Shown here: positions 28,345 through 37,399 of the stretch, piece by piece
Layout: every line of letters begins with the position of its first letter
Position numbering within the stretch: position 1 is the stretch's first letter
Assembly (NCBI GenBank): GCA_020853795.1
Contig: JADYYF010000156.1
Location: 1 to 46,296, forward strand
Direction: 5' to 3'
DNA: 46,296 bases
From: Candidatus Zixiibacteriota bacterium
GTDB lineage: Bacteria > Zixibacteria > MSB-5A5 > CAIYYT01
The notes under the pieces: generated by a model
What the model was told of the DNA's origin: nothing
The model's input: the letters and a program-made list of their open reading frames with translations, nothing else
Database searches by the model: none
Made by a program: the position numbers and the translations under genes

Positions 28345-28373
28345 AATCTACTTTTTGCCCAAAAAATTGTCAA
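28345..28373 (-). promoter_or_regulatory. Sigma-70-type promoter for the secreted-protein/LytR_C genes
   Basis: A perfect TTGACA (28373-28368, minus strand), a 17-bp spacer and TAGATT (28350-28345). The -35 box overlaps the last codons of the GlmU-type gene. Predicted start near 28338, giving a leader of about 37 nt. Confidence 0.6.
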
Positions 28374-29104
28374 CGATTTAATTCCGTGAAGATCGACTCC
28401 AGTTCCTGTAACTCCTTGACCGAGTTGACTCCCAGCGCCTCGCGGTAGTCGGCCAGTTTCAGAGCCGATGTCTTCTTCCCCTCATCAATCATGATCTTCA
28501 TAACGTCGGTCAGATAAAATTCGCCTTGCGCGTTCTTGTCGTCGACTTTGTGGAGAGCGGAACGCAGCGCGTCCGCGTCAAACATGAAGATTCCGGTATT
28601 GATTTCGCGCACGGCGCGCTCTTCATCACTACAATCGGCATGTTCGACAATTTTCTTCACCGAGTCGTCCGACCCGCGAATGATCCGGCCGTAGCCGGTG
28701 GCGTCCGGGGGCACCGAGGTCAGTACCGTCGCCGCTGCGCCGGCCCGGCGATGATGTTCGATCAACGCCGTCAGCGATTTTCGCGTCAACAACGGCACAT
28801 CCCCCGCCAGCACCAGGATCCCGCCCTGGAAATCCTTGAAGTGCGTTTCGGCCGACATGACTGCGTGGGCCGTCCCGCGTTGTTCGTGCTGGATGGCAAA
28901 TTCGATGCCGGGGTCGTGGTCGTAGAGCGCCATCACCTGCTCGCGGCCGTGACCGACAACCAGCACGATCTTTGTCAAACCGAGCTTCTTGAGTAATTCC
29001 GTCAGGCGCCAGACCATCGGCTTGCCGGCGATCGGGTGCAACACTTTCGGCAGGTCGGATTTCATCCGCTTGCCCTTGCCGGCGGCGAGTATGATGGCGA
29101 GCAT
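28370..29104 (-). CDS. GlmU-type N-acetylglucosamine-1-phosphate uridylyltransferase, short form
   Basis: The 244-aa protein has the nucleotidyltransferase signature LAAGKGKRMKSDLPKVLH near its start, and GTAHAV, LAGDVPLL, GYGRII and INTGIF in family order. It resembles the N-terminal half of GlmU, which makes UDP-GlcNAc. The C-terminal left-handed beta-helix acetyltransferase domain is absent, and no such domain is in the window. The enzyme may act alone, or the acetylation step may be encoded elsewhere. ATG at 29104 gives the usual MLAIILAAG start. A TTG at 29122 is also open. The gene follows panD after a 27-bp gap and ends at a promoter. Confidence 0.88.
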   Translation of the reverse strand: MLAIILAAGKGKRMKSDLPKVLHPIAGKPMVWRLTELLKKLGLTKIVLVVGHGREQVMALYDHDPGIEFAIQHEQRGTAHAVMSAETHFKDFQGGILVLAGDVPLLTRKSLTALIEHHRRAGAAATVLTSVPPDATGYGRIIRGSDDSVKKIVEHADCSDEERAVREINTGIFMFDADALRSALHKVDDKNAQGEFYLTDVMKIMIDEGKKTSALKLADYREALGVNSVKELQELESIFTELNR

Positions 29105-29131
29105 GTCGGGGGACTTCTTCAAGGTTTGGGG

Positions 29132-29485
29132 CTACGATTTGATGATGCGGTTCTTCTTGTCGACTTTGACGATGGTGGGCTGGTGTTTGGCAGCCTCTCT
29201 TGGCGACAGCAGAATGTAGGTGATCACGATCACAACGTCGCCGACCTGCCCCAGTCGCGCCGCCGGGCCGTTGAGGCACACTGTGCCGGAACCCTTCTTG
29301 CCCGCGATCGTATAGGTTTCAAACCGTTCGCCATTGGCCACGTTGACCACCTGCACCTTCTCGCCTTCGATGATATTGGCCGCCTTCATCAAGATCGGAT
29401 CCAGTTCGAGCGAGCCCTCGTAGGCGAGGTTGGCGTCGGTCACCGTGGCGCGGTGGATCTTCGATTTGAACATCGTCAGGTACAT
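29132..29485 (-). CDS. panD: Aspartate 1-decarboxylase
   Basis: The 117-aa pyruvoyl enzyme makes beta-alanine from aspartate for pantothenate. The self-cleavage site is Gly24-Ser25 in AYEGSLELD; Ser25 becomes the pyruvoyl group. The family core SKIHRATVTDANL and LNGPAARLGQVGD is present. ATG at 29485 lies 1 bp from the panC stop. Coupled with panB and panC, it completes the branch to pantoate plus beta-alanine. Confidence 0.96.
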   Translation of the reverse strand: MYLTMFKSKIHRATVTDANLAYEGSLELDPILMKAANIIEGEKVQVVNVANGERFETYTIAGKKGSGTVCLNGPAARLGQVGDVVIVITYILLSPREAAKHQPTIVKVDKKNRIIKS

Positions 29486-29486
29486 G

Positions 29487-30335
29487 CTACTTGACCTTCA
29501 TTGTCACATTGTCAATCAGTCGGACGCCGTCGATACGGCACGCCAGGCTGATCGCGACATTTCCGGCGATCCGGTCCAACTCGATCAGCGACTTCTCATC
29601 CGCGACCGACACATAGTCGACCGTCGCCTCCCCGTCTTTAACAAGTCGGGCGGTGATATAGTTCCGGATCACCGCCGCCGAACGCTCGCCGCGCCGGATC
29701 AGTTCCTGCGCCGCAAACAGCGCTTCAGGGATCACGCGCGCGCGCCGGCGACCCAGTTCAGAAAGATACACGTTCCGCGACGACAAAGCAAGACGATCGC
29801 GATCGCGCACCGTGGGAACAATGACAATTTTAACCGGAATATTCAGATCGCGCACCATTTGTTTGATCACGATCGACTGCTGCAGGTCCTTCTTGCCGAA
29901 AACGGCAACGTCCGGCTGCACGACATTGAACAGCTTGAGAACAACCGTCGCGACACCGCGAAAATGTCCCGGCCGGAAGGCGCCCTCGAGCACCGTTGCG
30001 ATCTTTTCCGGCACAACATAGGTATCGAAGTCTTGTGGATAGACGTCGTCAGCCGCCGGATTGAACACGAAGTCGACCCCCGCCTCGCGGCAGAGCCGGC
30101 AATCTTCATTCAGCGTGCGGGGATATTTGGTGAAATCTTCGCGGGGACCGAATTGCGTCGGATTGACGAAGATCGAGACGACAGTGACCTTTCCGAGTTT
30201 CTTCGCGCGCTTGATCAGTTCCATATGGCCGCGATGCAGCGCGCCCATCGTCGGTACCAGGGCGATGGTCTTGCCGTGACGCTTCAACTTCAGCGCCGCC
30301 GTTTGCATCTGACTGGAAGAACGGATGAGTTTCAT
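29487..30335 (-). CDS. panC: Pantothenate synthetase
   Basis: The 282-aa enzyme joins pantoate and beta-alanine using ATP. The start is ATG at 30335 (MKLIRSS); the frame is open 52 codons further but runs into panB. Signatures: VPTMGALHRGHMELI with the HIGH-like HRGH, FVNPTQFGPREDFTKYPRTL, and VFGKKDLQQ. The C-terminal region has RDRLALSSRNVYLS (KMSKS-like loop). Length matches the family. The stop is adjacent to panD. Confidence 0.96.
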   Translation of the reverse strand: MKLIRSSSQMQTAALKLKRHGKTIALVPTMGALHRGHMELIKRAKKLGKVTVVSIFVNPTQFGPREDFTKYPRTLNEDCRLCREAGVDFVFNPAADDVYPQDFDTYVVPEKIATVLEGAFRPGHFRGVATVVLKLFNVVQPDVAVFGKKDLQQSIVIKQMVRDLNIPVKIVIVPTVRDRDRLALSSRNVYLSELGRRRARVIPEALFAAQELIRRGERSAAVIRNYITARLVKDGEATVDYVSVADEKSLIELDRIAGNVAISLACRIDGVRLIDNVTMKVK

Positions 30336-30342
30336 GGCGGCG

Positions 30343-31155
30343 TTAGCCGTAGCTCTCCGCGTCATTGGGATAGCTACCGCTGCGCACGTCGGCGGCGAAC
30401 TTGGCCCCGACTTCGCGCAGCTTGGCCTGGTAGTTGAAGTACTGCCGCACGAATTTCGGCATAAAGTCCTCGCCGACGCCCATAATGTCATTGATCACGA
30501 TGATCTGGCCGTCGGTGTCTTTACCGGCGCCGATGCCGATAGTCGGGATCGTCAGGCTTTCGGTGATCTTGCGCGCGATGTCGTTCTTCATCGCTTCCAG
30601 CACGACGCTGAAACAGCCGGCCTCTTCGAGCGCCTGTGCCGATTCGAGCAAATAGTTCTTCCCGACATCAGTCTTGCCCTGCACCCGGTAGCCGCCGAAT
30701 TTGTTGATCGACTGGGGCGTCAGACCGATATGCCCGAACACCGGGATTCCCGCCTCGGTGATCCGTCGGATTCGCGGCGCCATCTCGATTCCGCCTTCCA
30801 GTTTGATCCCCGCGGCGCCGCCTTCCGCCAAAAACCGCATCGCATTGCGCACGGCGTCGGTATCCGAAGTTTGATACGATCCGAACGGCATGTCGCCCAC
30901 CACCATCGCCGTTTGGGCGGCACGGCTGACCGCTTCGGTGTGGCGCAGCATTGTCTCCATGGTCGCGGATAAGGTGTCCTTGTGGCCGTAGACGACCATA
31001 TTGAGGGTGTCGCCGACCAGCAGGCCGTCGACGCCGGCGGCATCCAGCGCCCGGGCCGTGTAGTAGTCATAGGAGGTGATCCAGACGATTTTCTCGCCCT
31101 TCTTCTTCATCGGCCCAAAGCTGGCGGCGGTGATTTTGTTCTTAGCAGTTGTCAT
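30343..31155 (-). CDS. panB: 3-methyl-2-oxobutanoate hydroxymethyltransferase
   Basis: The 270-aa enzyme forms ketopantoate from 2-ketoisovalerate and methylene-tetrahydrofolate. Family motifs: ITSYDYYTARALDAAGVDGL, LVGDTLNMVVYG, GDMPFGSYQ, and KLEGG, HIGLTPQ and GIGAGKDTDGQI. ATG at 31155 overlaps the deoxynucleoside kinase stop by 1 bp. It is the first of the panB-panC-panD series, so the organism can make pantothenate. Confidence 0.96.
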   Translation of the reverse strand: MTTAKNKITAASFGPMKKKGEKIVWITSYDYYTARALDAAGVDGLLVGDTLNMVVYGHKDTLSATMETMLRHTEAVSRAAQTAMVVGDMPFGSYQTSDTDAVRNAMRFLAEGGAAGIKLEGGIEMAPRIRRITEAGIPVFGHIGLTPQSINKFGGYRVQGKTDVGKNYLLESAQALEEAGCFSVVLEAMKNDIARKITESLTIPTIGIGAGKDTDGQIIVINDIMGVGEDFMPKFVRQYFNYQAKLREVGAKFAADVRSGSYPNDAESYG

Positions 31156-31817
31156 CAGATTCCCAGTTCCTGATCGCCCCGGGTAAAATAGCGCGTCCCC
31201 TGCCGCATCTCGGCGATCTGGTTGAAGATCTCTTCCAGATGCTGCGAGTTTTCGACAAAGTCCAGATTGTCGGTTTTGATCACGAGCAGTGGGGTGCGGT
31301 TGTAGTGGAAGAAATGATAGTTGTAAGCGTCGAGTACCTGCTTGAGATACTCGGCGTCGAAATTACGCTCATAGGTCACATTGCGCTTGGCGATTCGCGC
31401 CAGGAGCACGTCGACCGAGGCGGTCAGGAAGACCGCCAGATCGGGGCGCGGCAGGTTCTTCTTCAAGAGGTCGGCAACCTGCTTATAGAGCGCCAATTCC
31501 TCCTCGGTCAAGTTCGCCGAGGCAAACAGCAGGTCTTTCTCAAAAGTGTAATCCGCGACGATCCGCTTCTTGAACAGGTCAAACGCGACCAGTTCGCGCT
31601 GCTGCTGGTACCGTGAGAGCAGGAAGAAGAACTGCGTTTGCAGGGCATAGCGCCGGCGGTCGCGGTAGAAGTCTTTCAGAAACGGATTTTTCGCCGCCTC
31701 CTCCAGCACCAGATGTCCGCCAATCCGGTCGGCCAGGATTTTGCAGAAAGTCGTTTTGCCGACGCCGATCGGTCCGTCGACGGCGACGTAGTGGAGGTGG
31801 GCGAAACGATCATCCAT
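31155..31817 (-). CDS. Deoxynucleoside kinase (deoxyadenosine/deoxycytidine type)
   Basis: The 220-aa P-loop kinase has Walker A GPIGVGKTT (residues 15-23), the DRH-like substrate element in VADYTFEKDLLFA, and the LID segment RNVTYERNFDAEYLKQ. It salvages deoxynucleosides to monophosphates. In operon with fol and pan genes, with ends overlapping folK by 8 bp and panB by 1 bp. Substrate choice between dA, dG and dC cannot be fixed. It is complementary to nrdJ, which is encoded just upstream on the other strand. Confidence 0.9.
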   Translation of the reverse strand: MDDRFAHLHYVAVDGPIGVGKTTFCKILADRIGGHLVLEEAAKNPFLKDFYRDRRRYALQTQFFFLLSRYQQQRELVAFDLFKKRIVADYTFEKDLLFASANLTEEELALYKQVADLLKKNLPRPDLAVFLTASVDVLLARIAKRNVTYERNFDAEYLKQVLDAYNYHFFHYNRTPLLVIKTDNLDFVENSQHLEEIFNQIAEMRQGTRYFTRGDQELGI

Positions 31818-32325
31818 GATAAACTCGTATTCCCTGTAACGGGTCCGTAATCAGGCGCAAGCAGTCCGCAAACGGCCGGGCATCTTTATGACAATACGCA
31901 TCCGGAGCGATTTCCAGAAGCGGGATCAGCACAAACTTGCGGTAACACATGCGCGGGTGCGGCAATTGCAGTTCCGCCGTGTTGCTGCGGAGTTCGTCGA
32001 AGGCAAGGATGTCGATATCGAGCTGCCGCGGTCCGCGGGCAACGGCTCGAACCCGCGGGAAACTGCGTTCCACGGCGCGCGTCTGCGCCAGCAATTCAGT
32101 TGCGCTCAACGACGTCTTCACCTCGACCACACTGTTCAAAAAGTCCGGCTGGGCCTGGTAATCCACGGGCGTCGTCTCGTACAATTGCGAACTGCACACT
32201 ACCGTTACATCTCCGGATGCCTGCAACCGCTCCAGTGCTTGCCGGATGTTCTCGCTCCGGTCGCCCAGATTTGATCCCAATGACAGATAGATCGAAATAC
32301 TAACTCCGCCCGCGTTTGATCTCAA
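31810..32325 (-). CDS. folK: 2-amino-4-hydroxy-6-hydroxymethyldihydropteridine pyrophosphokinase
   Basis: HPPK of about 160-171 aa transfers pyrophosphate to the pterin in folate synthesis. Motifs: IYLSLGSNLGDRSENI, YETTPVD, FLNSVVEV, and the metal/ATP segment RGPRQLDIDILAF and LPHPRM. The listed start is TTG at 32325, which overlaps folB by 26 bp and has GAGG directly abutting it. A second possibility is ATT at 32298 with GGAG five nucleotides upstream, giving an N-terminus that fits the family better. It is coupled to the kinase gene by an 8-bp overlap. Confidence 0.93.
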   Translation of the reverse strand: MRSNAGGVSISIYLSLGSNLGDRSENIRQALERLQASGDVTVVCSSQLYETTPVDYQAQPDFLNSVVEVKTSLSATELLAQTRAVERSFPRVRAVARGPRQLDIDILAFDELRSNTAELQLPHPRMCYRKFVLIPLLEIAPDAYCHKDARPFADCLRLITDPLQGIRVYHG

Positions 32326-32659
32326 CCTCGATATGATCGAGATTCCCCGGGATCGGCGGAATCATTTTCCGCACCCGGACGACGACCGTGCTGATGCGAT
32401 CATCGCTCAGGATGCGTCCGGCGATATCCTGTGCGATCGCCTCGATCAAGGCGTACTTTTTGCCGTTCATCACGTCTTCGATCGTCGCGTACACCTGCGC
32501 ATAATTGACGGTATCGGTCAGGCGATCGCTGGCACCCGGTTTGGTCAAATCGAGAAACAGCTCGCAGTCCACCTCGTAGCGCCGGCCGGTTTCTTTCTCG
32601 GCCGCGCTGACGCCGTGGTAGCCGTAAAAAATCATGTTCTGCAGGCGGATGACGTCCAT
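32300..32659 (-). CDS. folB: Dihydroneopterin aldolase
   Basis: The 119-aa FolB performs the aldol cleavage of dihydroneopterin. Family motifs: IRLQNMIFYGYHGVSAAEKE near the start, DTVNYAQVYATIEDVM, LIEAIAQDIAGRIL with catalytic-region residues, and VRVRKMIPPIPGNLDHIEVE. ATG at 32659 overlaps the stop of the preceding aminotransferase-like gene (TGATG). The longer frame upstream is not coding. It pairs with folK immediately downstream. Confidence 0.95.
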   Translation of the reverse strand: MDVIRLQNMIFYGYHGVSAAEKETGRRYEVDCELFLDLTKPGASDRLTDTVNYAQVYATIEDVMNGKKYALIEAIAQDIAGRILSDDRISTVVVRVRKMIPPIPGNLDHIEVEIKRGRS

Positions 32660-33837
32660 CACTTTTGCCTCGCGTGCAGGCGGGAGCGAATCGGCTGATA
32701 GTGCCGGACGAATTGATCGAGTGCCGCCGCCAGCTCCTCGCCGCCGACGTTGGCGCTGATGCGGATCCAGCCCTCGCCGTTTTCGCCGAAGGCCGATCCC
32801 GGCGCTACCAGCACGCCCTTGGAGCGCAGGAGTGAACGCGCAAAATTCACAGCCACACGACGATGCCGCAGCTGGACCCACACGAAACCGCAACCAGCCG
32901 TCGGGAAATACTCGATTCCGGCTGAGCGCAACTTGTCGGTGACGATTGTCATCCGTTGTGCGATTTCGTTGCGGCATCCGGCAATTTGGGCGCGCAAGGT
33001 GTCGGCGTCCCGCAGATAGGCGGCCGCGGAGCGAATCACCGGCTGCGGCACTTCGAAGCTCAAGCTGCGTGCCAATGCCGCCAGCGGCTGGATCAGCGTC
33101 TTGCGCCCAATCAGCGCGGTGAGTTTGAGTTCGGGCGCGAGCAGCGAAGTCGAGAAGCTAATCAGTTCCAGCCCCGTGCGCAGGTTGCGCGGCGTCTGGC
33201 ACAACAACGGCGGTTGAAAATTGCCGGCAAACGACAGCGCGTACGACGAGTCGACGATCGTCAACAGGTTGGACTCGACCGCGCACTTGTGTAGGCGGCG
33301 GTAGAACTCCTTGTCGCAGACGGCGCCGGTCGGATTGTGCGGGGAATTGACCAGCAGCACACCGAACGATCTGGCCCCGCGCGCGCGAAATTGCTCCAAG
33401 TTGGGCAGGAAATCATTGCGCTGGTACAGCGGGTACGGCTTGATCTGCGCGCCAAACAGCGTGGCAAAGACGCGATAACTCAGGTAACCGGGATCGGGGA
33501 CGTGATAGACGGCATCGGCGTCCGCCAGGTAGGCGTTGAGCAGCAGCAGGGCAATCTTGGTGCCCGGCATCAACAGCATTTCTCGCTGCGGGTCGAGCTT
33601 GACTTCATACTCCGAAGCGAGGTACTCGGCCAGGACCCGGCGAATCGCAGGTTCGGTGATGGGGTGAGCACTCTGATCCGCCGGCTCGCGGCGCAACGCA
33701 AACCGTCCGAGATCGACAACGGGGCGCCCGCGACGAAGCTGCGCAGCCTGCAGGTCGGCCATCTCGCCCAGGAAGGGCGCCGGCAGCCGCTGCACGCGTT
33801 CGGCCGAAGCCACGACGACACGCCCGGAGATTCTCAA
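32659..33837 (-). CDS. Fold-type I aminotransferase-like protein lacking the PLP lysine
   Basis: The 392-aa protein has the class I/II aminotransferase layout: PDPGYLSYRVF, then LLVNSPHNPTGAV (the Asn/Pro pocket), IVDSSYALSF (Asp and Tyr contacting PLP) and WIRISANVGGEE with the substrate-binding Arg. The Schiff-base motif SxSKxxxPGxRxG is altered: the sequence is ISFSTSLLAPELKLT with Thr230 at the Lys position, and Lys238 replaces the Arg. So normal transamination is unlikely. TTG at 33837 overlaps the aldolase stop and follows GGAGAGAGAA. It may be a catalytically dead or repurposed paralogue acting in the fol/pan operon. Confidence 0.86.
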   Translation of the reverse strand: MRISGRVVVASAERVQRLPAPFLGEMADLQAAQLRRGRPVVDLGRFALRREPADQSAHPITEPAIRRVLAEYLASEYEVKLDPQREMLLMPGTKIALLLLNAYLADADAVYHVPDPGYLSYRVFATLFGAQIKPYPLYQRNDFLPNLEQFRARGARSFGVLLVNSPHNPTGAVCDKEFYRRLHKCAVESNLLTIVDSSYALSFAGNFQPPLLCQTPRNLRTGLELISFSTSLLAPELKLTALIGRKTLIQPLAALARSLSFEVPQPVIRSAAAYLRDADTLRAQIAGCRNEIAQRMTIVTDKLRSAGIEYFPTAGCGFVWVQLRHRRVAVNFARSLLRSKGVLVAPGSAFGENGEGWIRISANVGGEELAAALDQFVRHYQPIRSRLHARQK

Positions 33838-34517
33838 TTCTCTCTCCGGCGCCGATCGCGCGGCATAGTGATCGCCGACAGGGAATGTTCGTCCGCCGTG
33901 ATCTCCTCCTCATCGTAACCGACATCCATGTCCATGGCCATATCGATTTGATAGGCCAGGTAAAGTGCCTTGGCGCAGTGCTCGGCCATCTCGGTCCGGA
34001 AGAATGCCTCCAAAACCGTCGTCCCCAGCGCAACCAAACCGTGGTTTTCGAGCAGGTAGACACAACCGCTGCTAATATGCTTTGCGAGCGCGTCGGACAA
34101 TTCTATGGTTCCCGGCGCGGCGTAAGGGACGAACGGAATTGTGCCGAAGCTAACCTCAAACTCCGGCAATCCGGAAGCGTCAATCGCCGTACCCGCCAGA
34201 GCGAATCCGGTTGCATAACTCGGATGGGAATGCACAACAGCGTTGATCTCCGGCCGCTTTTCGTAGGCCAGCAGATGAATCCGATATTCGCTCGATGGCC
34301 GCTGTGATTTCGACTTCGGTTTGCCGGTGCGATCGAGCACCACGAGATCAGCCGGGCTCATCATGCCTTTGCAGACGCCGGCCGGTGTGATCAGGATCTC
34401 GCCTGCAGGAAGCCGACAAGAGATGTTGCCCTCGGTTCCTGCAATCAACCCTTTATCGTACAATAACTTACCGACTCTGCAGATTTCTTTGCGATACGCT
34501 AACGTTTTGTCTGCCAA
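33834..34517 (-). CDS. Class II aldolase/adducin-type protein
   Basis: The 227-aa zinc-dependent aldolase-fold protein has GLIAGTEGNISCRL, then ITPAGVCKG and SSEYRIHLLAY (catalytic Glu region). The metal histidines are in AVVHSHPSYATG and LLENHGLVALG. The pattern is that of L-fuculose-phosphate-like aldolases or methylthioribulose-phosphate dehydratases; the substrate is not determined. TTG at 34517 follows GAGGATAGCAG. It is the first gene of the operon running to panD and the GlmU-type gene. Confidence 0.9.
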   Translation of the reverse strand: MADKTLAYRKEICRVGKLLYDKGLIAGTEGNISCRLPAGEILITPAGVCKGMMSPADLVVLDRTGKPKSKSQRPSSEYRIHLLAYEKRPEINAVVHSHPSYATGFALAGTAIDASGLPEFEVSFGTIPFVPYAAPGTIELSDALAKHISSGCVYLLENHGLVALGTTVLEAFFRTEMAEHCAKALYLAYQIDMAMDMDVGYDEEEITADEHSLSAITMPRDRRRREN

Positions 34518-35062: not shown

Positions 35063-37399
35063 ATGCAGGGATCAGAGAAGAAAGCGTTGACCGAAAACGC
35101 CCTGCGCGTCTTGGAAAGGCGCTATTTGGCCAAGGATGACCACGGGAATGTGATCGAATCACCCGATCAACTCTTCCGACGTGTGGCAACGGCGGTCGCA
35201 CAGTCGGACCGGAACTACGGTGCGACCGACGAGCAAATTCAGGAAACGGCCGAAACCTTCTACCGCATGATTTCGAGTCTCGACTTCATGCCCAACTCGC
35301 CGACGCTGATGAACGCCGGGAGGCCGCTCGGGCAATTGTCGGCCTGCTTCGTTCTGCCGGTCGGCGACTCGATGGAAGAGATTTTCGAAACGATTAAGCA
35401 TGCGGCCCTGATTCACAAGTCGGGCGGCGGCACCGGATTCTCGTTCTCGCGGTTGCGCCCGCGCAACTCGATGGTTGCTTCGACCTCGGGCGTGGCCTCG
35501 GGACCGGTTTCCTTCATGAAGGTGTTCAATGCCGCCACCGAAGCGGTCAAACAGGGCGGCACGCGCCGCGGCGCCAATATGGGGATACTGCGTGTCGATC
35601 ATCCCGATATCGAGGAATTCGTCTCCTGCAAAGACGACCTTGCGCAGGTTACCAACTTCAACATCTCGGTGGCGATCACCGATGAGTTCATGCGGGCCGT
35701 CAAGGAGAACCGGGATTACGCGCTGCTCAACCCGCGCACCGGCGAGCCGTACACGGTCAACGGCAAGACCGTCACCAAGTACGCGCCGAAGATCTTCAAC
35801 GATATCATTCAGCACGCCTGGCAGACCGGCGAGCCGGGGATCGTCTATATCGACCGGATGAACGCCCTCTCGCCGAACCCCGGGTACGAGGTCATCGAGG
35901 CCACTAATCCCTGCGGCGAACAGCCGTTGCCGCCGTACGATTCCTGCAATCTCGGCTCGATCAATCTGGGCGCAATGGTGATGACGGAAGTACCGCGCGA
36001 CTACAATCCCAAGGTTGACCCGGCGCGCGGCATCGACTGGGATCGGTTCCGCAAGCTGATCCAGGACTGCGTGCACTTCCTCGACAACATCATCGACGCC
36101 AACAAATATCCGATTCCCGAAATCGAAGACCAGACCCGCCGCAATCGTCGTATCGGGCTCGGCGTGATGGGCTGGGCGGATATGCTGATCAAGTTGCGTG
36201 TGCCGTACAACAGCGAGAAGGCGTTTGAACTGGGTGAGCGCGTGATGGAATTCATCAACAATGAAGGCCACATGTACTCCTCCGAGTTGGCGCGCCTGCG
36301 CGGCAAGTTCCCGAACTGGGAACATTCGCGCTTTGCCGCCGAGGGCGTGATCATGCGCAACGCCACTGTGACCACGATCGCGCCGACCGGCACGATCTCG
36401 ATCATCGCGGGCTGTTCGTCGGGGATTGAACCGTATTACGCGATTTCCTTCGTCCGCAACGTTATGGACAATACCAAGCTGGTTGATGTCAACCCGCTCT
36501 TCGAAGAGATCGCTCGTAAGCGCGGCTTTTATACCCAGGAACTGATGGAGAAGATCGCCAACGACAATTCCGTTCAGGGCTTCGACGATATCCCCGGCGA
36601 TGTGAAAGAGCTCTTCATGACCGCCGCCGACGTCACGCCGTTCCAGCATATTCGGATGCAGGCGGTCTTCCAGAAGAACTGCGATTCGTCGGTCTCCAAG
36701 ACGATCAACATGGACAACTCCGCGACGCAGCAGGATGTCTACGACGCCTACTGGTACGCCTACGAACTCGGCTGCAAGGGCGTGACGATCTATCGCGACG
36801 GTTCGCGGCCGATGCAGGTGCTTTCTACCGGTAAGACCAAGGACCCGAATGCGGCCAAGGAAGAGCCGAAGGTCGAAGCTGCCGCCCCGACTGCCGCCGC
36901 GGCTCCGGCCACACCGACGACTCCGGCGGTCGAATCGGCCGCGCCGGCACACGCCGAGGTGCAGGATCGTCCCGATGTTTTGACCGGCATCACCGAGCGC
37001 ATCCGCACCGGCTACGGCAATCTCTACATCACGATCAACGAGCACAACGGCAAGCCGTTCGAGGTGTTTGCGCAGATCGGCAAGTCGGGCTGGTCGACGA
37101 TGGCCGACACCGAGGCGATCTGCCGCATGATTTCGCTGGCGCTGCGTTCCGGCGTGCCGGTGAGCGCGATCATCGAGCAATTGGCCGGCATCGGCGGAGA
37201 ATCGCCGCTGTATCAGAACGGCGAATTGATCAAGTCGATTCCCGATGCGATCGGCATTGTGCTGAAGAAGCATTTCGGCAACGGCAAGGACGTGCAGCGC
37301 AAGTCGACCTATCACGAGGTCTGCCCCGACTGCGGGACCAAGCTGGAGCACGATTCCGGGTGCGTCACGTGTCGCGGCTGCGGCTATAACAAGTGTTAG
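35063..37399 (+). CDS. nrdJ: Adenosylcobalamin-dependent (class II) ribonucleotide reductase
   Basis: The 778-aa enzyme reduces ribonucleotides using adenosylcobalamin and works with or without oxygen. Motifs: PNSPTLMNAGRPLGQLSACF (with a redox Cys), SGGGTGFSFSRLRP, TNPCGEQPLPPYDSCNLGS (active-site Asn, Cys and Glu), and TTIAPTGTISIIAGCSSGIE. From about residue 595 an Ala/Pro-rich linker of about 35 residues leads to a TSCPD-type C-terminal domain. The end is a Cys-rich zinc or redox tail (CPDCG, then CVTCRGCGYNKC), expected to re-reduce the active site. ATG at 35063 follows GGGAGAGCTGTT. NrdR-like boxes lie about 200 bp upstream. Confidence 0.96.
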   Translation: MQGSEKKALTENALRVLERRYLAKDDHGNVIESPDQLFRRVATAVAQSDRNYGATDEQIQETAETFYRMISSLDFMPNSPTLMNAGRPLGQLSACFVLPVGDSMEEIFETIKHAALIHKSGGGTGFSFSRLRPRNSMVASTSGVASGPVSFMKVFNAATEAVKQGGTRRGANMGILRVDHPDIEEFVSCKDDLAQVTNFNISVAITDEFMRAVKENRDYALLNPRTGEPYTVNGKTVTKYAPKIFNDIIQHAWQTGEPGIVYIDRMNALSPNPGYEVIEATNPCGEQPLPPYDSCNLGSINLGAMVMTEVPRDYNPKVDPARGIDWDRFRKLIQDCVHFLDNIIDANKYPIPEIEDQTRRNRRIGLGVMGWADMLIKLRVPYNSEKAFELGERVMEFINNEGHMYSSELARLRGKFPNWEHSRFAAEGVIMRNATVTTIAPTGTISIIAGCSSGIEPYYAISFVRNVMDNTKLVDVNPLFEEIARKRGFYTQELMEKIANDNSVQGFDDIPGDVKELFMTAADVTPFQHIRMQAVFQKNCDSSVSKTINMDNSATQQDVYDAYWYAYELGCKGVTIYRDGSRPMQVLSTGKTKDPNAAKEEPKVEAAAPTAAAAPATPTTPAVESAAPAHAEVQDRPDVLTGITERIRTGYGNLYITINEHNGKPFEVFAQIGKSGWSTMADTEAICRMISLALRSGVPVSAIIEQLAGIGGESPLYQNGELIKSIPDAIGIVLKKHFGNGKDVQRKSTYHEVCPDCGTKLEHDSGCVTCRGCGYNKC

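Follow-up and report, generated by a model that had tools for sequence, protein, structure and literature searches.

The window analysed here, a stretch of 46,296 nucleotides from Candidatus Zixiibacteriota bacterium (contig JADYYF010000156.1), carries an aminotransferase-fold protein without the lysine on which PLP chemistry depends. We call this protein ATx; its gene lies among genes for folate and pantothenate synthesis. The locus raises the question of whether the missing lysine is an accident of one genome or an old and maintained trait, and what an aminotransferase fold of this kind would do beside enzymes of vitamin synthesis. To our knowledge, few descriptions exist of bacterial pseudoenzymes with an aminotransferase fold, and the precedents that we met, LCB1/SPT1 and yeast Alt2, are eukaryotic.

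The ATx gene, its fold and its operon

The first-pass annotation had described an aminotransferase-like protein that carries the landmarks of the family, in which the lysine motif reads SFST (Thr230) and Lys238 stands in place of an Arg. Both readings hold in the minus-strand ORF 33837..32659 (Table 1). NSPHNPTG, VDSSY and the C-terminal Arg359 (GEGWIR) are all found in the ATx of the window, with the Asn of NPTG and the Asp and Tyr of VDSSY kept. The roles of these positions we take to be those of Lys258, Arg266, Asn194, Asp222, Tyr225 and Arg386 of aspartate aminotransferase. On this assignment, Thr230 occupies the position of the Schiff-base lysine of an active enzyme and Lys238, eight residues on, that of the Arg that binds the PLP phosphate; the carboxylate-binding C-terminal Arg is present as Arg359.

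Table 1. Features of the ATx locus in the window, with the basis of each assignment
Feature	Coordinates	Strand	Basis
ATx, class I/II aminotransferase-fold protein without lysine, 392 aa, TTG start	32659..33837	-	ORF reading, Pfam, orthologue survey, AlphaFold model
S-F-S-T, residues 227-230; Thr230 at the position of the PLP Schiff-base Lys	33148..33159	-	coordinates computed from ORF start
Lys238, replaces the PLP-phosphate-binding Arg	33124..33126	-	coordinates computed
Class II aldolase family protein (ALD), directly upstream of ATx	33834..34517	-	family search
folB, dihydroneopterin aldolase	32300..32659	-	family search
folK (HPPK)	31810..32325	-	family search
Deoxynucleoside kinase (dNK)	31155..31817	-	family search
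panB, ketopantoate hydroxymethyltransferase	30343..31155	-	family search
panC, pantoate-beta-alanine ligase, start taken at MKLIRSS	29487..30335	-	family search
panD, aspartate decarboxylase	29132..29485	-	family search
GlmU-like nucleotidyltransferase domain alone	28370..29122	-	family search

The sole Pfam match of ATx is Aminotran_1_2 (PF00155), at 149 bits against a cut-off of 19.7, and this score, together with its type I fold, places the protein in that fold family. Among NCBIfam models it comes closest to those of LL-diaminopimelate aminotransferases, at 164-166 bits against cut-offs of 507-593; for the equivalog model TIGR03540, the score is 164.1 bits against 593.25. Automatic annotation, which will tend toward LL-diaminopimelate or aspartate aminotransferase for these proteins, would be misleading. 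AlphaFold models retained the fold both for the ATx of the window (pLDDT 91.9, pTM 0.90) and for an ATx of the Tyr type (pLDDT 90.6, pTM 0.89). The closest solved fold to the ATx model is BacF of B. subtilis, with Z 44.1 over 370 residues and 24% identity.

On the minus strand, the genes follow one another in the order ALD, ATx, folB, folK, dNK, panB, panC, panD and the GlmU-like nucleotidyltransferase domain. The gene overlaps its neighbours at both ends: its start shares TTGA with the stop of ALD, and its stop shares TGATG with the ATG start of folB. Translational coupling is therefore likely on either side, in line with the description of the gene as intact and translationally coupled. The folate-pantothenate operon with ATx between ALD and folB is conserved across the phylum. 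Counting neighbours on the same strand and within 2.5 kb, folB lies within that distance of ATx in 104 of 110 operon-linked homologues, and for six of the 110 ALD is the only linking gene. We also considered whether ATx fills in for a missing folate enzyme and rejected the idea: the genome of the window has folE, a pterin-binding (folP-type) match and three Aminotran_4 genes, and thus no gap was found for ATx to fill.

Two neighbours deserve a remark of their own. The upstream ALD displays, by eye, an HxH...H zinc-ligand pattern, and the models that fit it best, fuculose- and ribulose-1-phosphate aldolases among them, all score below their cut-offs. The FolB reaction releases glycolaldehyde, and ALD might recycle it with DHAP. 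A putative ribonucleotide reductase gene, recognised by eye at 35063-37399 on the plus strand, runs divergently to the operon and lies close to dNK, and its neighbourhood recurs in several related genomes.

The lysine site and the pocket across the phylum

A protein search with ATx found a match in each of 58 related genomes, and a profile at 1e-60 hit 107 of 118 genomes from the phylum. Stretches were fetched from 114 genomes, 110 of which have a homologue adjoining folB, folK, dNK or ALD. These 110 cover 18 of the 19 sampled families, the exception being f12, whose one genome, G019, is without ATx. The four genomes without a linked match comprise one in which no cluster was found (G005), one with ATx at a contig end (G007), one with a C-terminal ATx fragment at a contig end (G053) and one with just a lysine-bearing paralogue (G122). 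Among the best 80 of 573 matches, named records with operon-linked ATx are mostly Candidatus Zixiibacteriota, which NCBI places in the FCB group, and some are plain 'bacterium'. The same 80 hold one record labelled Bacteroidetes and one labelled Calditrichota (L042, L046); both nest inside the class of the window in the tree, and the labels are therefore probably wrong.

The Schiff-base lysine is missing in 109 of the 110 operon-linked homologues; over all 110, the site is occupied by Tyr (56), Phe (23), Thr (12), Leu (5), His (4), Pro (2), a deletion (2) and, once each, Val, Ile, Ser, Ala, Asp and Lys. As a control we used 89 homologue matches outside the operon neighbourhood, 86 of which have Lys; the remaining three consist of two pieces of a single ORF of the genome of the window, neither of them covering the site, and the ATx at the contig end of G007 (L161), with Leu there. 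The difference between the two sets is no chance pattern. At the phosphate-Arg site, Arg is found in 2 of the 110 operon-linked homologues versus 77 of the 89 outside the operon, while Lys at that site, which also occurs in eight of the outside matches, is a weak criterion alone. Misalignment was rejected as a cause of the missing lysine, since the S-x-S before the site and the Gly after it are in register and the outside matches carry the lysine (86/89). Relocation of the lysine within ATx was likewise rejected, as no other Lys is widely conserved except in the N-terminal arm.

The single operon-linked ATx with Lys (SLSKGTG) belongs to G025 (L124, 9352-10566). Its Lys codon is AAA versus ACA (Thr) in the close relative G037, its phosphate site is Asp, and it is nested among Thr/Ser relatives in the tree. 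This Lys looks like a chance return, without a working active site. Two further loci are irregular: one genome bin (G083) holds two differing ATx operon copies (L202 and L251), by duplication or mixed assembly, and in G044 (L167, 9161-10338) ATx lies in two frames, a frameshift that marks either a recent pseudogene or an error of sequencing.

Set beside its lysine-bearing relatives, ATx has mostly lost conservation at the Lys, the preceding Ser, the Arg, Met-x-Gly-Trp and the PLP-stacking Tyr. It retains the PHNPT stretch, the Asp in 105 of 110 homologues and the C-terminal carboxylate Arg in all 103 that cover the site (seven fragments end before it). Among the gains is an N-terminal arm, K/R-K-V-I-I-D/E-K-A-x-R; in this fold family, the N-terminal arm usually spans across the dimer. 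Trp72 (Tyr in the window), Arg122 and LPNL at 144-147 are also gained, and Pro stands at +5 of the former lysine in 77% of ATx versus 0% of lysine-bearing relatives. Families f1 (that of the window), f5, f6 and f11 keep all tested pocket residues except Lys, with Lys238 counted as phosphate ligand, whereas most of these residues are gone from families f2, f3, f4, f14 and f16. Together with the tree and the selection described below, the sequences make the loss of classical PLP-lysine chemistry in ATx a well-supported reading. In the ATx of f4 (L127, L161, L162, L165), the PLP-binding Asp is also gone, with Arg instead; the FolB beside three of these (L127, L162, L165) is divergent, at 31-35% to that of the window.

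Phylogeny, selection and gene loss

Trees were calculated from alignments that excluded the lysine loop, with rows thinned to 113 and 50 and short fragments dropped. In the 113-row tree, the lysine-less operon proteins form one side of a single branch with an SH-aLRT of 100; in the 50-row tree, their clade has support of 100/100 and appears in 100% of 200 bootstrap trees, a bootstrap that had not fully settled. Either tree requires a minimum of two lysine changes, one loss and the Lys of G025. The dN/dS of ATx was 0.07-0.19 in eight of eight close pairs, a range like that of folK and ALD of those pairs; the ratios were derived from stop-to-stop frames, and dS was above 1 (saturated) in three of the eight. 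These results show that the lysine loss in ATx was ancient and single and has been maintained. ATx is in these respects a pseudoenzyme in the general sense of a conserved homologue without catalytic residues under purifying selection. The low dN/dS and the lysine-less 109 of 110 also support the earlier suggestion of a maintained pseudoenzyme in a conserved folate/pantothenate operon. We conclude that ATx is a real, selected, phylum-wide pseudo-aminotransferase of fold type I in a vitamin operon.

ATx has been cleanly lost in four genomes in which folB and folK are present (G019, G020, G048, G079). G020 and G048 still have ALD, dNK, folB, folK and panB, and G079 has ALD adjoining folB; G019 (L292) is also without dNK and ALD. 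G079 (L291) gave no PanB match in one search and no dNK match in another, which the nearby contig end (4.8 kb) may explain. The presence of folB and folK without ATx in these four genomes shows that ATx is accessory and that the pathway has no strict need of it. Six other genomes (G060, G090, G119, G122, G005, G038) gave no ATx match and no FolB, PanB or dNK match either, so the absence of ATx there is nonspecific. G015 (52% complete) was left out of the calls of ATx loss. The FolB proteins of G020 (L294) and G048 (L293) are unusually divergent, at 40-42% to that of the window versus 53-56% in other members of their family.

Rate covariation with the neighbours was calculated on 63 and 76 genomes, and the order of partners changes with the method. 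Raw distances gave 0.47 for ATx-FolB and 0.48 for ATx-FolK, with the others at 0.26-0.28. With patristic distances, the values were 0.55 for FolB and 0.48 for PanB, or 0.56 for PanB with FolB and FolK at 0.38. ATx, the longest and fastest of the proteins, tracks all of them, and no single partner stands out.

Possible roles and known systems

Because the lysine was lost long ago and ATx is nevertheless kept under selection in nearly the whole phylum, ATx probably has a new, non-aminotransferase job in the folate-pantothenate operon. The reading that we favour, at about even chances, is an ancient pseudo-aminotransferase whose role in the folate/pterin cluster is that of an accessory or ligand-sensing subunit. 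On this reading, a single loss of the PLP lysine took place in an LL-diaminopimelate-aminotransferase-like ancestor, ahead of the divergence of the Candidatus Zixiibacteriota families in the sample. ATx has kept the fold and the carboxylate-binding Arg, with the PLP-lysine chemistry gone. The retained Arg359 fits a carboxylate ligand and the new N-terminal arm fits a changed interface, from which we infer that ATx, without catalysis of its own and probably as a dimer, assists the enzymes encoded next to it as an accessory or sensing subunit. The former substrate pocket would sense a small carboxylate or phospho-ligand, and the surface of ATx would act on a partner enzyme, most likely in the pterin branch of folate synthesis (FolB/FolK), a preference drawn from gene order alone. 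Tentatively, one may go further and picture a sensor or scaffold, free of cofactor, through which pterin (FolB/FolK) flux is tied to the synthesis of pantothenate and dNTPs, a regulator of the folate operon made from a dead enzyme.

Other readings would leave ATx some catalysis. A pocket rebuilt for a PLP-independent, cofactor-free reaction on a folate or pantothenate side product would agree with the retained Arg359, PHNPT stretch and Asp (105/110), with the new conserved positions and with the setting in a biosynthetic operon. We consider it unlikely, however, since the pocket varies much by family and shows no obvious common new catalytic set beyond ordinary aminotransferase residues. ColD is a lysine-less PMP/PLP enzyme, and an ATx that binds its cofactor non-covalently in the same style, at least in the family of the window, is improbable to a similar degree. 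The intact remainder of the pocket makes it possible there, as in f5, f6 and f11, where every tested pocket residue but the Lys is likewise kept. Solved Lys-to-Asn/Gln variants of the Arabidopsis LL-diaminopimelate aminotransferase hold external aldimines, according to the records 3ei9 and 3eia. Against such an enzyme, no single substitute has taken the lysine site (Y, F, T, L, H, P, V, I, S, A, D or a gap), and the stacking Tyr, the phosphate Arg and the Ser are lost in other families.

Slightly less probable still is a heterodimer in which ATx, itself non-catalytic, pairs with an active aminotransferase, after the manner of LCB1/SPT1 in serine palmitoyltransferase. There, according to PMC6148460, SPT1 is without the PLP lysine and SPT2 has it, both are required, and the active site lies at the dimer interface. 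The ATx operon, however, holds no lysine-bearing aminotransferase partner, ATx is the only match at 1e-60 in the genome of the window, and the closest lysine-bearing paralogue clade occurs in few genomes; its absence from most of them makes an LCB1-type heterodimer less likely. Finally, a strain mutation, a sequencing error or a decaying pseudogene is barely credible, even though ATx is frameshifted in G044 and gone from four genomes that keep folB and folK. The first-pass annotation had proposed an alignment of orthologues, which would all keep Lys if the Thr were a strain mutation or a sequencing error; just 1 of 110 does, and the orthologue survey refutes both. Decay is opposed by the same absence of Lys in 109 of 110 orthologues, by purifying selection and by the intact frames.

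ATx also points to an accessory step or control, so far unrecorded, in bacterial folate synthesis. With more than 100 orthologues, a fixed neighbourhood, a single lysine loss and few clean gene losses, the purpose of a PLP-free aminotransferase fold becomes testable on one operon. We found no paper on the ATx family in the open-licence literature, in which our broad queries ranked far more than the top results examined, and the accessible part of the review PMC9309667 has nothing on it. The clustering of folB, folK and panB is described, along with a folate-cleaving side reaction of PanB, in PMC4814558, which accounts for the clustering of these three genes as in the ATx operon; the word 'aminotransferase' is absent from its main text.

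Among known proteins, LL-diaminopimelate aminotransferases and their kin (TIGR03540/NF006756; BacF, 6l1l; PA aminotransferase, 2x5d) are similar to ATx over the full length in sequence and fold and provide its best NCBIfam and PDB matches; unlike them, ATx is without the PLP lysine and the phosphate Arg and scores far below the cut-offs. Yeast Alt2, according to PMC5960717, is an aminotransferase paralogue whose former activity is gone and which has no known role. It resembles ATx as such a paralogue and differs in that it still forms a Schiff base with PLP (PMC5960717). LCB1/SPT1 shares with ATx the type I fold, the missing PLP lysine and retention by selection (PMC6148460), whereas LCB1 belongs to another subfamily, the alpha-oxoamine synthases, and pairs with a lysine-bearing homologue of a kind that the ATx operon does not encode.
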